A stretch of 64,000 bases of DNA from NCBI RefSeq assembly GCF_017743865.1, contig NZ_JAGHRJ010000002.1, positions 558,001-622,000 of the forward strand, given 5' to 3'. The notes beneath the pieces are model-generated. The model did not search any database, was not told where the DNA came from, and saw only the letters and a list, made by a program, of their open reading frames with translations. The stretch's first letter is position 1. Each line of letters starts with the position of its first letter. The position numbers and the translations under genes are program-made. Below, in pieces: positions 19,074 to 24,100 of the stretch. Source of the DNA: Labrenzia sp. R4_2 (GTDB taxonomy: Bacteria; Pseudomonadota; Alphaproteobacteria; Rhizobiales; Stappiaceae).

Positions 19074-19234
19074 TATTGCGGATCGTTTCAAACCTGCAAT
19101 GGGGCTTTATGCAGCAAAAACAGCGCAGCACTCGAGAGGTATTCTGCGTCAAGAATAACATTCGCCTTTATCCGGGACGGTCAACGACCTACATCCTGCC
19201 GAGCCCGCATTGATTGACAGAGGATCCCATCGGC

Positions 19235-19507
19235 GTGACCAAACAGAAAACACTCAACATCCGCGTGCCCAAAGATCCCTCTGAAGCGATCACGGCCATT
19301 GTTGCTTATGCGGGGATTGCGAAGAGGCTGCATGTGGAACTCAGCACCCATGCAGAAGCGGTCGGACTGGATCTTGATCAAATCAAAACCGACCTCATCA
19401 ATGAAGCGAAGAAGGCGGTTCCGCATAGCGATTTCTCGGACCATGAGATCAGAAACTACAACATCATGTTCGAAGCCATCGATACGATCTTCAAGCCGAT
19501 CGACTGA
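19235..19507 (+). CDS. Small conserved-looking cytoplasmic protein, function unknown
   Basis: A 90-residue acidic protein without signal peptide or membrane segment, probably mostly helical (KDPSEAITAIVAYAGIAKRL, then HAEAVGLDLDQIKTDLINEA). I do not recognise the family. The GTG at 19235 is preferred, with GAGGA about ten bases before it; a TTG at 19214 is the upstream alternative. Codon use looks like the neighbouring genes. It is divergent from acyP and convergent with the RibN-like gene, 21 bp away. Confidence 0.7.
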   Translation: MTKQKTLNIRVPKDPSEAITAIVAYAGIAKRLHVELSTHAEAVGLDLDQIKTDLINEAKKAVPHSDFSDHEIRNYNIMFEAIDTIFKPID

Positions 19508-19528
19508 TATCGGCTGTCTCTGAGAGGA

Positions 19529-20434
19529 TCACGCTGTTTTCGCCACGGCATTTCCCCGTCTCTGTTCATCGAGCATCACCATGAGCGATGCCCCGACAAT
19601 CACCAGAGCACCCGGCCAAAACGCACCCGTTGGAGCAAAGCCGAAGGCAATGAAGCCAACGGCAATGTTGAGCGGCAGCTTCAGATGGTCGAACGGCTGA
19701 ACAAAGGTTACGTCCGCCTTTTGATACGCCAGCGTCAAAAGATAGTTCGCAAGAACGGTTAAGAGGCCGGCCCCAACGAGCAGGACAAGCGCCGCGCCAC
19801 TGACGACAAGGCCTCCATCGGCGAAGGCAAGCGCCGCATTCACGGGCGTCAAAAGGAGCAACAGATAAAGCGTGATGGAATCGGCTGCCTCCCGCTGTGT
19901 CAGTTTCTTTGTCACAAGCGACGTTCCGGCCCAAAACGCAGCGGCTGCGACGGGGAGCAAAGCGCCCCAGTTAAATGCCTGCGACCAGGGCTCGAGGATC
20001 ACCATCCCACCTGAAAAGCCGGCAATGGTCGCGAGCCATCGCACCCAGCCAACTTGTTCCCCGAGAAAGATCCGGGCGCCAAGAATGACGAAAAACGGCG
20101 ACGTCATCACAAGGGCGATCGCCTGCCAGATTTCCACGCGCGCCAGGCCGGCAACCCACAGCTGAATGCCAATGACGGCCAGGAAAGCCCGCAGGAGATG
20201 CAACCCGAGTTGTTGTGTTTTCAAGGCGGTTCGCCCGCGCCGGAGCACCCAGGGAAGCGCAAAGCAAAGTCCAAGCGCATATTGCCAGAAAGCTGCCGAC
20301 GTTGACGGCACGCCGAGCCGCATCGTCGATGCCTGCAGGGCGCCATTTACAAGGGCAAATGAGGCGCCTGCCCCGACCATGGCAAGCGCTGCCAGCACCG
20401 GCTGCGCCTGAAGTGAGGAGGATTTGGTGTCCAT
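19529..20434 (-). CDS. ribN: RibN-like riboflavin transporter (EamA/DMT family)
   Basis: A 301-residue integral membrane protein with about ten hydrophobic segments and two EamA repeats. By sequence alone it is a drug/metabolite-superfamily permease. It is called RibN because an FMN riboswitch and its terminator lie directly upstream on the same strand (20484-20664), as in known riboswitch-controlled RibN riboflavin importers of rhizobia and Vibrio. The ATG at 20434 with GGAACGGA upstream is the start; an upstream in-frame codon at 20485 falls inside the terminator and is excluded. Confidence 0.85.
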   Translation of the reverse strand: MDTKSSSLQAQPVLAALAMVGAGASFALVNGALQASTMRLGVPSTSAAFWQYALGLCFALPWVLRRGRTALKTQQLGLHLLRAFLAVIGIQLWVAGLARVEIWQAIALVMTSPFFVILGARIFLGEQVGWVRWLATIAGFSGGMVILEPWSQAFNWGALLPVAAAAFWAGTSLVTKKLTQREAADSITLYLLLLLTPVNAALAFADGGLVVSGAALVLLVGAGLLTVLANYLLTLAYQKADVTFVQPFDHLKLPLNIAVGFIAFGFAPTGAFWPGALVIVGASLMVMLDEQRRGNAVAKTA

Positions 20435-20483
20435 TGTCTTGAAGTCCGTTCCAGTTTTCACCCAGAACAGTCTCAAAAAGACC

Positions 20484-20517
20484 AAAAAGCTGCACCGCTT
20501 GAGAAAAGCGGCCCAGC
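20484..20517 (-). terminator. Expression-platform terminator of the FMN riboswitch
   Basis: On the minus strand GCTG-GG-CCGCTT, a five-base loop, AAGCGG-TG-CAGC, then TTTTT. It begins four bases after the aptamer and precedes the ribN start by 50 bases, so premature termination is the likely mode of control. Confidence 0.85.
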
Positions 20518-20520
20518 CAA

Positions 20521-20664
20521 GCTCTCTATCATCCGGACTATAACCGTCGGCTCCGGCATCTCACCGGATCTGCTGACCCTTGGCAAACATGGACTACCAA
20601 GGCGCTCGCGGGCTCCAGGTTTCCCTGATACCGCCGGTGGGGACTTTCACCCCGCCCCGAGAAC
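20521..20664 (-). promoter_or_regulatory. FMN riboswitch aptamer (RFN element)
   Basis: The conserved RFN blocks occur in order on the minus strand: CGGGGCGGGGTGAAAGTCCC, CACCGGCGGTAT, AGCCCGCGAGCG, GGGTCAGCAGATCCGGTGAG, GATGCCGGAGCCGACGGTTA and TAGTCCGGATGATAGAGAG. All six-stem junction segments are represented and unbroken. It binds FMN; binding should favour the adjacent terminator and switch off the RibN-like transporter. It lies between pccA and ribN and serves only ribN. Confidence 0.97.
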
Positions 20665-20793
20665 TGTTCTTGAAATCCGTGTTTACCCGGCTCAACCGAT
20701 CGGCGCAACGGCTGCGGGCCGGAAAATTCAGTATGACTGAAAAGCTGTCGGATGGCCGGCAGCTGACTTTTCAAGAACACAACCGGTCGATGA

Positions 20794-22806
20794 TCAGGAG
20801 AACTCCATTATCACGGCATCAACCGCGAGGCTGTCGCCCGGCTCTGCTTTGATGGCAGTCACGACACAGTCCCGCTCGGCACGAAGGACGTTCTCCATCT
20901 TCATGGCTTCAACGATGGCCAGCTGTTCGCCCGCTTTGACTTCCTGACCTTCACTGACGGCGATAGACACGACCAGACCCGGCATCGGGCACAGCAGCAT
21001 CTTGGATGTGTCCGGCGGAAGTTTTTCCGGCATCAACTCATCGAGTTCGGCAACACGCGGCGTCATGATCTTTGCTGTTACGGAATAGCCCTGCCAATCG
21101 AGGCGGTAGCCACCACGAACCGGACGGACCTGAACAGTGATGTCCTTGTCCCCGACGCGGCCGCTCCAGAGTGCAGCGCCCGGCGCCCAATCCGATTCCA
21201 CATTGACGACAGGCCCGTCACCAATCGCGACATCAAGCTCAATTGGCGTTCCCGGATAACCGGCCGCAAGACGAATGGGAACATAAGTCTTGTCGAGCTT
21301 AACCACCCAGTCCTCACGGATGGCACCGGAGTGCGGCCGCAAACGGCCAGGAAGATGGTCGAGACGTTCGCGCTCAATCGCCGCCATGGACAGCGACACG
21401 GCCGCCAAAACGCCCCGCGCTTCGTCATCCGGCTCAGCCGGGAAAAAGCCGTCCGGGTATTCATCTGCAATGAAACTGGTCGCCAGTTCGCCGGACCGCC
21501 AACGCGGATGGTTCATCAACGCTGTTAGGAACGGCACGTTGTGCTGAATGCCGTCAACGTAGTACCCGTCCAGCGCCTTGCTCATGGCGTCAATCGCTTC
21601 TTCGCGGGTCGGGGCATGGGTGATCAGCTTGGAAATCATCGGGTCGTAGAACATGGAGATCTCCGACCCCTCGACCACACCGGTGTCATTCCGGATGGTC
21701 AGCCCATCGCTTTCCAGTTCCTCCGGCGGGACGTAGCGCACGAGTCGGCCAATTGAGGGCAGGAAGTTCCGGTAAGGATCCTCGGCATAGATCCGGCTTT
21801 CCACGGACCAGCCGTTCAGCTTCACGTCGTCCTGTGCGATTTCAAGCTTCTGGCCATAGGCAACGCGGATCATCTGCTCGACCAGATCGACCCCGGTGAT
21901 CAACTCAGTAACCGGGTGCTCCACCTGAAGTCGGGTGTTCATTTCAAGGAAGAAGAAGCTCTTGTCCTGGCCAGCCACAAACTCAACGGTGCCCGCGCTG
22001 TCGTAGTCAACGGCTTTCGCCAAGGCGACCGCTTGTTCGCCCATGAGCCGGCGTGTGTCTTCATCCAGCAGCGGCGACGGCGCTTCTTCAATCACCTTCT
22101 GGTTACGGCGCTGGATCGAACACTCTCGCTCGCCCAGATAAATCGCGTTGCCGTGTTTGTCGCCAAGAACCTGAATTTCAATATGGCGCGGGTTCTCGAT
22201 GAACTTTTCAACGAAGACGCGGTCATCGCCAAAGGAAGATGCAGCTTCTGATTTGGACCGGGTGTAGCCGTCACGTACTTCTTCGGCGTTCCAGGCGATC
22301 CGCATCCCCTTCCCGCCACCGCCGGCCGAAGCCTTGATCATCACCGGGTAGCCGATGTCCTCTGCGATCTCGACGGCTTGATCAGGTGATTCAATGACAC
22401 CGAGATATCCTGGAACCGTGCTGACTTTCGCCTCGTTGGCAAACTTCTTGGATTCGATCTTGTCGCCCATCGCTTCAATCGCGCGCGGGTTCGGACCGAT
22501 CCAAACGATACCTTCCTTTGCGAGCGCCTCCGGAAAGCTTGCCCGCTCAGACAAGAAGCCATAGCCGGGATGCACAGCTTCAGCACCAGTCTCCTTACAG
22601 GCTGCGATGATCTTGTCAGCAATCAAGTAGGATTCAGCAGCTGCCGCCGGACCGATGTGAACGGCCTCGTCGGCCATCTCAACGTGCAGAGCATTCCGAT
22701 CGGCATCTGAATAGACCGCAACGGTTTTGATTCCCATCTTCCGCGCCGTCTTGATAACGCGGCACGCAATCTCACCCCGGTTGGCGATCAGTATTTTCGA
22801 GAACAT
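20794..22806 (-). CDS. pccA: Acyl-CoA (propionyl-CoA) carboxylase, biotin-containing alpha subunit
   Basis: A 670-residue protein: biotin carboxylase (residues 1-445, with GGGGKGM and HIEIQVLGDKHGN), a BT linker domain (about 480-590), and a C-terminal biotinyl domain with EAMKMEN carrying biotinylated Lys636. This architecture is that of PccA/MccA subunits, which pair with a beta carboxyltransferase; PccB is encoded at 24636-26168 on the same strand. Together they convert propionyl-CoA to methylmalonyl-CoA. Substrate choice (propionyl versus other acyl-CoA) is inferred from overall family resemblance. Confidence 0.93.
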   Translation of the reverse strand: MFSKILIANRGEIACRVIKTARKMGIKTVAVYSDADRNALHVEMADEAVHIGPAAAAESYLIADKIIAACKETGAEAVHPGYGFLSERASFPEALAKEGIVWIGPNPRAIEAMGDKIESKKFANEAKVSTVPGYLGVIESPDQAVEIAEDIGYPVMIKASAGGGGKGMRIAWNAEEVRDGYTRSKSEAASSFGDDRVFVEKFIENPRHIEIQVLGDKHGNAIYLGERECSIQRRNQKVIEEAPSPLLDEDTRRLMGEQAVALAKAVDYDSAGTVEFVAGQDKSFFFLEMNTRLQVEHPVTELITGVDLVEQMIRVAYGQKLEIAQDDVKLNGWSVESRIYAEDPYRNFLPSIGRLVRYVPPEELESDGLTIRNDTGVVEGSEISMFYDPMISKLITHAPTREEAIDAMSKALDGYYVDGIQHNVPFLTALMNHPRWRSGELATSFIADEYPDGFFPAEPDDEARGVLAAVSLSMAAIERERLDHLPGRLRPHSGAIREDWVVKLDKTYVPIRLAAGYPGTPIELDVAIGDGPVVNVESDWAPGAALWSGRVGDKDITVQVRPVRGGYRLDWQGYSVTAKIMTPRVAELDELMPEKLPPDTSKMLLCPMPGLVVSIAVSEGQEVKAGEQLAIVEAMKMENVLRAERDCVVTAIKAEPGDSLAVDAVIMEFS

Positions 22807-23030
22807 GCAATTCCACCCAGCTGGATCTGTTTTCTGAGTTGTAGGCCGGTCCCCCCCTCCAGTGCAACTTATCCAAAGGGTGGTCAGACGATGTGAGAAC
22901 CATCTTTTTATGGCTGTTCAGGCAAAACAATCGATAGGTTTGGATCACGGTCTATTGCGGCAAGGCACTGATTTTCCTTTTTCTTAACAAATATATTGCA
23001 AATTCTACCATGTATTTGGAGGAAGACGAC

Positions 23031-23504
23031 GTGGTGAAAAAACTAATAACATCACTGCTCATCGGATTTGCCCTGACGAGTTCTGTTCAGGCGAAAACGA
23101 TCGAAAAGTGGCATGCTGGAGAAGTCGATGGCTTCACCCGCTATTGGACCACAAACAACATCGGCGCGAGTTTTGTCGTTTGGTGCCATCCCCAGCGTCC
23201 AGTCAACGGCACTTTGTTGCATGTCGTCATTGACGGCAAAACACCCACTCCAAACACACGCATGAAGCTGATCATCGACAACGAGATCATGGAAATTCCG
23301 GTCAACGAACAAGGATATATCGACACAGGATGCGCAACCTGTGCCGACACGTTCGAATATGTCTGGCACCGGCTTCGCGCCGCAACGGCCATTGCGGTGA
23401 AGTTCAAGGACGACAGCTACGCCGGCTTTTCGCTCAAAGGTGCGAAAGAAGTTTTACCGGCAAATGTCTGCCCCACTGACTGGCAAAAAAAGCAAGCGTC
23501 ATGA
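23031..23504 (+). CDS. Small secreted protein, tandem paralogue A
   Basis: A 157-residue protein with a signal peptide (KKLITSLLIGFALTSSVQA, cleaved before KT). The mature part reads W..GEVDGFTRYWTTNNIG, VVWC, CATCADTFEYVWHRLR, and ends PANVCPTDW. It is clearly related to the next gene (shared W....V.G...YWT.N..G, WC, C..CAD, AGFS.....EV.P..VC). The four cysteines at shared positions suggest disulfides in the periplasm. The GTG at 23031 has GGAGGA seven bases upstream; an ATG at 23010 has none. I do not recognise the family. The pair sits between pccA and pccB on the opposite strand. Confidence 0.82.
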   Translation: MVKKLITSLLIGFALTSSVQAKTIEKWHAGEVDGFTRYWTTNNIGASFVVWCHPQRPVNGTLLHVVIDGKTPTPNTRMKLIIDNEIMEIPVNEQGYIDTGCATCADTFEYVWHRLRAATAIAVKFKDDSYAGFSLKGAKEVLPANVCPTDWQKKQAS

Positions 23505-23620
23505 GCAGCATCTCAGACAAGAGCGGTAAGTGTCATTTCAAGGCGTTTCTACTCAGCGGAATTAGCTAAAATTTAAGACAACCCTCGGTATTTTCAGCAG
23601 TGCATACATTGGGGCTCCGG

Positions 23621-24100
23621 ATGTTCACTCGCCTGTTTCTAATTGCAATGTTTATCGGTCTTTCCGTCACGCCGGGCGTTTCGGAAACCGTGGGCAGTTG
23701 GCACAGTGAAAAGGTGAATGGCTATCAGCATTATTGGACCAAGAACAAGCTCGGTTCGCGGTTTTCAATTTGGTGCCCTGATAGCAAGAAGGCCGTGCTT
23801 CCACTAATCAGTATTGATATTAAGGGGCGTCTTCCGGTCCCGAGAACCTTGATCCGGGTCGAGCTTGACCACCGCTTGATCAAATTTACTGCCGACAGAG
23901 ACGGGTACATCCGCCCGGACTGCCCTGCCTGCGCCGACAACATGCGGTATTTCTGGCAGCTTCTTCGTAACTCAGCACGTTTTGCCGTCCTGTTCGACGA
24001 GGATCGGCGGTATGCGGGCTTTTCAACCCGCGGCGTTGGCGAAGTGATCCCGCCAACGGTCTGTGAACCGGACCCGGGCCTTCAGGCCAACCACCAATAG
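23621..24100 (+). CDS. Small secreted protein, tandem paralogue B
   Basis: A 159-residue paralogue of the preceding gene, with a signal peptide (residues 1-22) and the same framework: GSWHSEKVNGYQHYWTKNKL, IWC, CPACADNMRYFW, AGFSTRG and PPTVCEPD. Cysteine positions are conserved between the copies while most other residues differ, which indicates an old duplication under constraint. The ATG at 23621 with GGGG nine bases upstream is preferred over a GTG at 23600. No enzyme motif is visible. Function unknown. Confidence 0.82.
   Translation: MFTRLFLIAMFIGLSVTPGVSETVGSWHSEKVNGYQHYWTKNKLGSRFSIWCPDSKKAVLPLISIDIKGRLPVPRTLIRVELDHRLIKFTADRDGYIRPDCPACADNMRYFWQLLRNSARFAVLFDEDRRYAGFSTRGVGEVIPPTVCEPDPGLQANHQ

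Follow-up and report, generated by a model that had tools for sequence, protein, structure and literature searches.

The closest described systems are the RibN permeases, which the part of PMC4418817 available to us reports from R. leguminosarum, O. anthropi, and V. cholerae, with an FMN riboswitch at the ribN gene in alphaproteobacteria and without one in gammaproteobacteria; the first criterion given there for RibN is an identity of more than 38% over 80% of the prototype. According to the accessible portion of PMC5312566, the ribN gene of V. cholerae is flanked by an outer-membrane-protein gene on one side and a glutaredoxin-domain gene on the other. The window analyzed here, i.e., the whole stretch of 64,000 nt of DNA from Labrenzia sp. 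R4_2, contains an aptamer–permease pair that is of a known kind, since an alphaproteobacterial RibN under an FMN riboswitch has already been published (same part of PMC4418817).

The RFN aptamer that the first-pass annotation had placed on the minus strand was recovered by a search of Rfam as a full-length match to RF00050 (cmscan; 20517–20668, minus strand; 113.9 bits, E-value = 9.1 × 10−26, model positions 1–138 of 138), well above the curated gathering score of 66.2. A search of the whole source genome, designated G000 in the genus set (5.66 Mb, 26 contigs), gave this single match. The closing helix P1 (−8.1 kcal/mol by folding) is formed by a 5′ strand contained in AGAACAGUUCUC (20659–20670, minus strand) and by the 3′ strand GAGAGCUU (20519–20526, minus strand; cmscan and folding). 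The downstream riboflavin biosynthesis or transport gene expected for RF00050 is also present, as an ortholog of RibN lies immediately 3′ of the aptamer. Judged by its covariance-model match, the aptamer is a real FMN riboswitch, for which FMN binding and switching are predicted.

In the genus set of 45 genomes, strong orthologs of the permease were found in 32 (57–100% identity), while among the remaining matches listed in the genus the identity was only 24–34%. An FMN riboswitch lies just upstream of the permease ortholog in each of these 32 genomes. RF00050 matches above the cut-off were present in 35 of the 45 genomes, 44 matches in all; 32 of them directly precede the permease ortholog, and the other 12 precede an ORF read as lumazine synthase, an identity confirmed by Pfam for one of the 12 (L055). 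Among the 13 genomes with no strong ortholog, 10 had no riboswitch and three (G035, G036, and G042) had the lumazine-synthase riboswitch only. The closest relatives of G000 were G023, G038, and G007, with 96–98% protein identity. Since the source genome also encodes riboflavin synthase and two lumazine synthases beside RibN, the bacterium probably synthesizes riboflavin as well as taking it up. The second of these lumazine synthase genes (G000:C11:34171–34563) resembles the riboswitch-bearing ones of other genus genomes, and its locus of 3393 bases gave no Rfam match at E-values up to 1. Three degraded FMN riboswitches scoring 41–43 bits, below the cut-off, were also observed in the genus (G016:C1:1908383–1908515, G017:C1:1711938–1712070, and G021:C4:496841–496970, the first and third being loci L059 and L060); that of G016 still precedes a lumazine synthase gene, and inspection of the sequence following that of G021 showed no lumazine synthase ORF.

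Three in-frame starts are available to the permease ORF in G000, namely, TTG 20485, located inside the U-run, GTG 20461–20459, and ATG 20434, the last preceded at a spacing of 10 by the weak Shine–Dalgarno candidate GGAACGGA (20445–20452, −3.9 kcal/mol). The start had earlier been fixed at 20434 on the ground that the upstream in-frame start lies inside the terminator, an argument that was incomplete because it overlooked the in-frame GTG at 20461. The start at 20434 is nevertheless probably right: ATG 20434 is favored by its better-placed ribosome-binding site, and a general upstream start is disfavored by in-frame stop codons between the aptamer end and the start in 10 of the 32 relatives.

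It is fairly likely that this FMN riboswitch controls ribN by hiding the Shine–Dalgarno region, in a Roseibium-type bacterium that also has riboflavin synthesis genes. On binding of FMN, the aptamer would form together with helix P1, which closes it; with P1 formed, CUGUUCUGG would fold onto CUGGAACGG, the Shine–Dalgarno region would be hidden, and synthesis of the importer would be off. At low FMN, the P1 5′ strand (AGAACAGUUCUC) would instead pair with GAGACUGUUCU, no sequestor would form, and RibN would be made. The proposed 3′ strand of the anti-sequestor, GAGACUGUUCU (20464–20474, minus strand), overlaps the 5′ arm of the sequestor (20462–20470) and occurs with small changes in 25 of the 32 genus leaders, and the 3′ arm of the sequestor, CUGGAACGG (20446–20454, minus strand; identified by hairpin folding), overlaps the Shine–Dalgarno candidate. 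Further downstream in 25 of the 32 leaders there is a copy of GAGACUGUUC, exact or closely similar, and the segment was absent from the other seven (G001, G012, G013, G015, G029, G030, and G044).

In the G000 leader, CUGUUCUGG (20470–20462) pairs with CUGGAACGG (20454–20446) at −9.4 kcal/mol over the best Shine–Dalgarno candidate, and none of 200 shuffles was as stable as this hairpin (20470–20446). When a 28-nt piece beginning at the segment was folded in each of the 25 leaders, the mean z was −3.3, and in 12 of the 25 no shuffle out of 200 reached the same stability, while the short hairpin of G020 was ordinary (matched by 88 of 200 shuffles). The 3′ arm is altered yet still pairs in G016, G017, and G041 (CCGGACAG). 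In some relatives (e.g., G019 and G027), the best Shine–Dalgarno candidate is located 3′ to the hairpin, where only longer pairings reach it. The competing duplex between AGAACAGUUCUC (20670–20659) and the segment comprises 11 bp with one bulge and has an energy of −12.5 kcal/mol, compared with −8.1 kcal/mol for P1; it and the sequestor hairpin are mutually exclusive. It should be noted that shuffles reach the duplex when it is taken alone (between 1 and 96 of 300 shuffles in the 25 leaders, and 5 in G000), so the argument rests on the conservation and position of the anti-sequestor and not on its strength; the helix hardly varies and consequently offers little covariation.

The effect of the segment on the ribosome-binding region was assessed by forcing it to be unpaired, whereupon positions −18 to +3 became more open in 24 of the 25 leaders (mean unpaired fraction from 0.25 to 0.47) and the Shine–Dalgarno candidate opened in 20 of the 25. 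In G000, the Shine–Dalgarno candidate went from 0.14 to 0.39 open, but the AUG became less open (from 0.67 to 0.40). A block of equal length slid along each leader gave a mean gain of 0.10, compared with 0.27 for blocking the segment itself; an average of 18% of positions did as well as the segment, and G008 gained nothing. Within the folding model, the effect of blocking the segment is therefore real on average and not sharply unique. With the exceptions listed, the leaders show what would be expected of a translational sequestor, namely, a conserved hairpin that covers the ribosome-binding region in competition with a pairing dependent on P1, the segment itself occurring in 25 of the 32. Our literature search, which left most subscription journals outside its reach, found nothing on the expression platform of ribN (sequestor or Shine–Dalgarno region); for the RFN elements of proteobacteria, translational sequestors were reportedly put forward in an older comparative study.

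Directly behind P1 lies a strong hairpin (20488–20518, minus strand; −19.6 kcal/mol) followed by the T-rich tail TTTTGGTCTTTTT (20475–20487, minus strand; identified by leader comparison and folding), which had been read as an intrinsic terminator. The hairpin and its tail stand as described, and in G000 they agree with a simple consensus of a G+C-rich stem followed by a U-run, yet the site does not rise above shuffled sequences: a terminator consensus scan of 2001 bases (19200–21200) gave this one site, compared with a mean of 3.0 in shuffles. Under one fixed definition, terminator-like sites were present in 3 of the 32 genus leaders (G000, G023, and G016, the last built on a different stem) versus 2.0 expected from shuffles, and the same definition, applied with no shuffle control, gave 6 of the 53 leaders outside the genus set (the 54 riboswitch loci described below minus L107). 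When G000 is set beside G023, G038, and G007, a CTTTTT run following the stem is found only in G000 and in G023, which retains GCAGCTTTTT, and the corresponding stretch reads GCAGCATATT in G007 and GCAGTGTATT in G038. As near relatives have lost the U-run and the sites occur at the level of chance, the terminator was rejected as a conserved mechanism. A terminator in G000 is possible, although it is neither conserved nor above chance, and in most relatives the hairpin behind P1 is probably a spacer hairpin.

These results bear on two alternatives to control by the sequestor alone. In the first, which we regard as unlikely, control would act at two levels, the conserved translational sequestor being joined by a terminator that arose from a U-run recently gained in the present species and in G023. 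Both structures do fold side by side in the G000 leader, and the FMN riboswitch of E. coli ribB has been shown to act also translationally (accessible portion of PMC5312566); set against this, the U-run may be due to chance, its site being no more frequent than in shuffles. A terminator may thus be an added layer in the present species. The second, more doubtful still, would be termination as first proposed: with FMN the terminator (20518–20475) would form and transcription would stop before ribN, and at low FMN the P1 3′ strand would pair with AGCUUUUUGG as an antiterminator. The stability of the hairpin, its T-rich tail, and a possible antiterminator pairing in the G000 leader (−8.2 kcal/mol by folding) are what this reading has in its favor, and it is opposed by the altered run in G007 and G038 and by the counts of sites in the scanned bases, in the genus leaders, and, with the above reservation as to the control, outside the genus. 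Translational repression is better supported than termination because the sequestor segment is better conserved (25 of 32) than the U-run or the terminator, and because relatives that have lost the U-run retain the sequestor together with the pairing that competes with it. The control mode was thus probably misassigned in the first-pass annotation, and its correction from a stop of transcription to hiding of the translation start is the more likely account.

Two further features of the window were observed. In the gap before the riboswitch, a stem AGCUG.CGG / CCG.A.CAGCU (20740–20764, minus strand; −9.3 kcal/mol) followed by UUU is a likely intrinsic terminator for the carboxylase-like gene upstream; read by eye, G007 keeps this stem with altered letters. 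A crude search with a single peptide signature found the carboxylase gene within 1500 nt, as far as the sequence reached, in 11 of 32 cases, and synteny with this gene was dropped as evidence because such a count is not informative. On the plus strand, two adjoining small ORFs (23010–23504 and 23600–24100; 164 and 166 aa), alike by eye (WH..EV/KV.G....YWT.N..G), may represent a secreted protein duplicated in tandem.

The gene behind the riboswitch (19529–20434, minus strand; 301 aa plus stop codon) matched EamA in Pfam (70.5 bits; cut-off 28.2) and is assigned to ribN, predicted to encode a riboflavin importer that belongs to the EamA/DMT superfamily, from Pfam, its orthologs, and a structure model. 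The AlphaFold2 model (mean pLDDT 81.1, pTM 0.81, 10 sequences) has ten membrane-length helices, the fourth of which is broken, and its fold matches in the PDB were DMT-fold transporters, including 5y78, 5i20 (presumably YddG), and the choline importer LicB. Pfam, the model, and the fold matches thus agree on an EamA/DMT permease with ten membrane helices, and the upstream FMN riboswitch characteristic of alphaproteobacterial RibN is present at its own locus and at all the strong genus orthologs. A search of solved structures with the permease sequence gave no match at E-values up to 1, and no NCBIfam model exceeded its cut-off (TIGR00950, 21 bits against 230.2; MamL, 16.2 against 100). The permease is very probably RibN, as the first-pass annotation had proposed, a sequence-based assignment backed by co-occurrence with the riboswitch and by homology and gene context relating it to published RibN; a gene that would otherwise carry only a generic EamA transporter annotation thereby gains a specific and testable function. 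That it carries another substrate or exports flavins, the riboswitch only reporting FMN status, is highly improbable: the EamA family is broad, its NCBIfam scores all fall short, and its fold is shared by transporters of many substrates, but the co-occurrence with the riboswitch, the lumazine synthase genes behind the other riboswitch sites of the genus, and the relation to RibN and its gene context as published in the available parts of the sources speak against it.

Homologous loci were taken from the best 80 of 210 relatives; 57 of them were submitted to Rfam, and the other 23 could be recognized from their title or contig as members of the genus set. The best named relatives among these 80, ahead of records from Roseibium and Labrenzia, were an “Alphaproteobacteria bacterium” with 97% protein identity and an “uncultured Labrenzia sp.” with 98%. 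RF00050 scored above the cut-off in 54 of the 57 loci outside the genus set (exceptions L114, L121, and L128), and in 53 of the 54 the riboswitch lies within about 400 nt of the permease. The R. pisi locus L128 was considered as a riboswitch-less RibN and rejected, since a whole-genome search found a riboswitch upstream of it, sharing its contig and strand. At this locus (G045:C16) and at L107, the riboswitch lies about 2.6 kb and about 1.2 kb before ribN, respectively, and genes may intervene. The loci L114 and L121, fetched with a short upstream part, contained no riboswitch and were counted as misses; the L114 genome has one riboswitch match elsewhere, with no established link to ribN, and the whole L121 genome gave no FMN riboswitch match. 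For the ribN leaders of the Rhizobium group, a pattern search over each locus, with no chance control, showed CUGAUUURUGUU and AUGAAUCAG both present in 38 of the 54 loci L091–L144; they are complementary by reading, and AUGAAUCAG contains a start codon. Their pairing would possibly hide the start codon directly, or AUGAAUCAG may be conserved instead for the first residues of the protein.

The 32 genus leaders offer a small natural series, with a fixed aptamer and a changing expression platform. A tentative reading, with rather low odds in our view, is that a single aptamer–importer pair was inherited and its platform rebuilt between lineages: Roseibium-type leaders would hide the Shine–Dalgarno region, many Rhizobium-group leaders would pair an upstream segment directly with the start codon, and G000 and G023 would have gained a U-run turning a spacer hairpin into a terminator that acts as a second lock.

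Compared with the described systems, the present locus is nearest to alphaproteobacterial RibN (R. leguminosarum and O. anthropi), with which it shares an EamA/DMT permease directly behind an FMN riboswitch and whose hosts, like the present one, also carry riboflavin synthesis genes (available part of PMC4418817). It differs from these only in the letters of the expression platform and in sequence, the permease being 52–57% identical to Rhizobium-group homologs. With a Vibrio homolog, it shares 45% identity over 295 aa. These identities were measured on the homologs named and not on characterized RibN proteins or the prototype themselves. The permease is homologous to RibN of V. cholerae (available parts of PMC5312566 and PMC4418817), represented here by the Vibrio relative, whose locus, unlike the present one, gave no Rfam match, and thus has no FMN riboswitch there, and has a glutaredoxin-domain gene following the permease gene. 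Upstream of the Vibrio homolog lies another ORF that reads as EamA-like and not an outer-membrane-protein gene, so only the glutaredoxin side agrees with the context of V. cholerae ribN. The FMN riboswitch of E. coli ribB, for which the translational level is reported in the available part of PMC5312566, belongs to the same aptamer class and, unlike the present one, controls a biosynthesis gene; the comparison made here is one of aptamer class.
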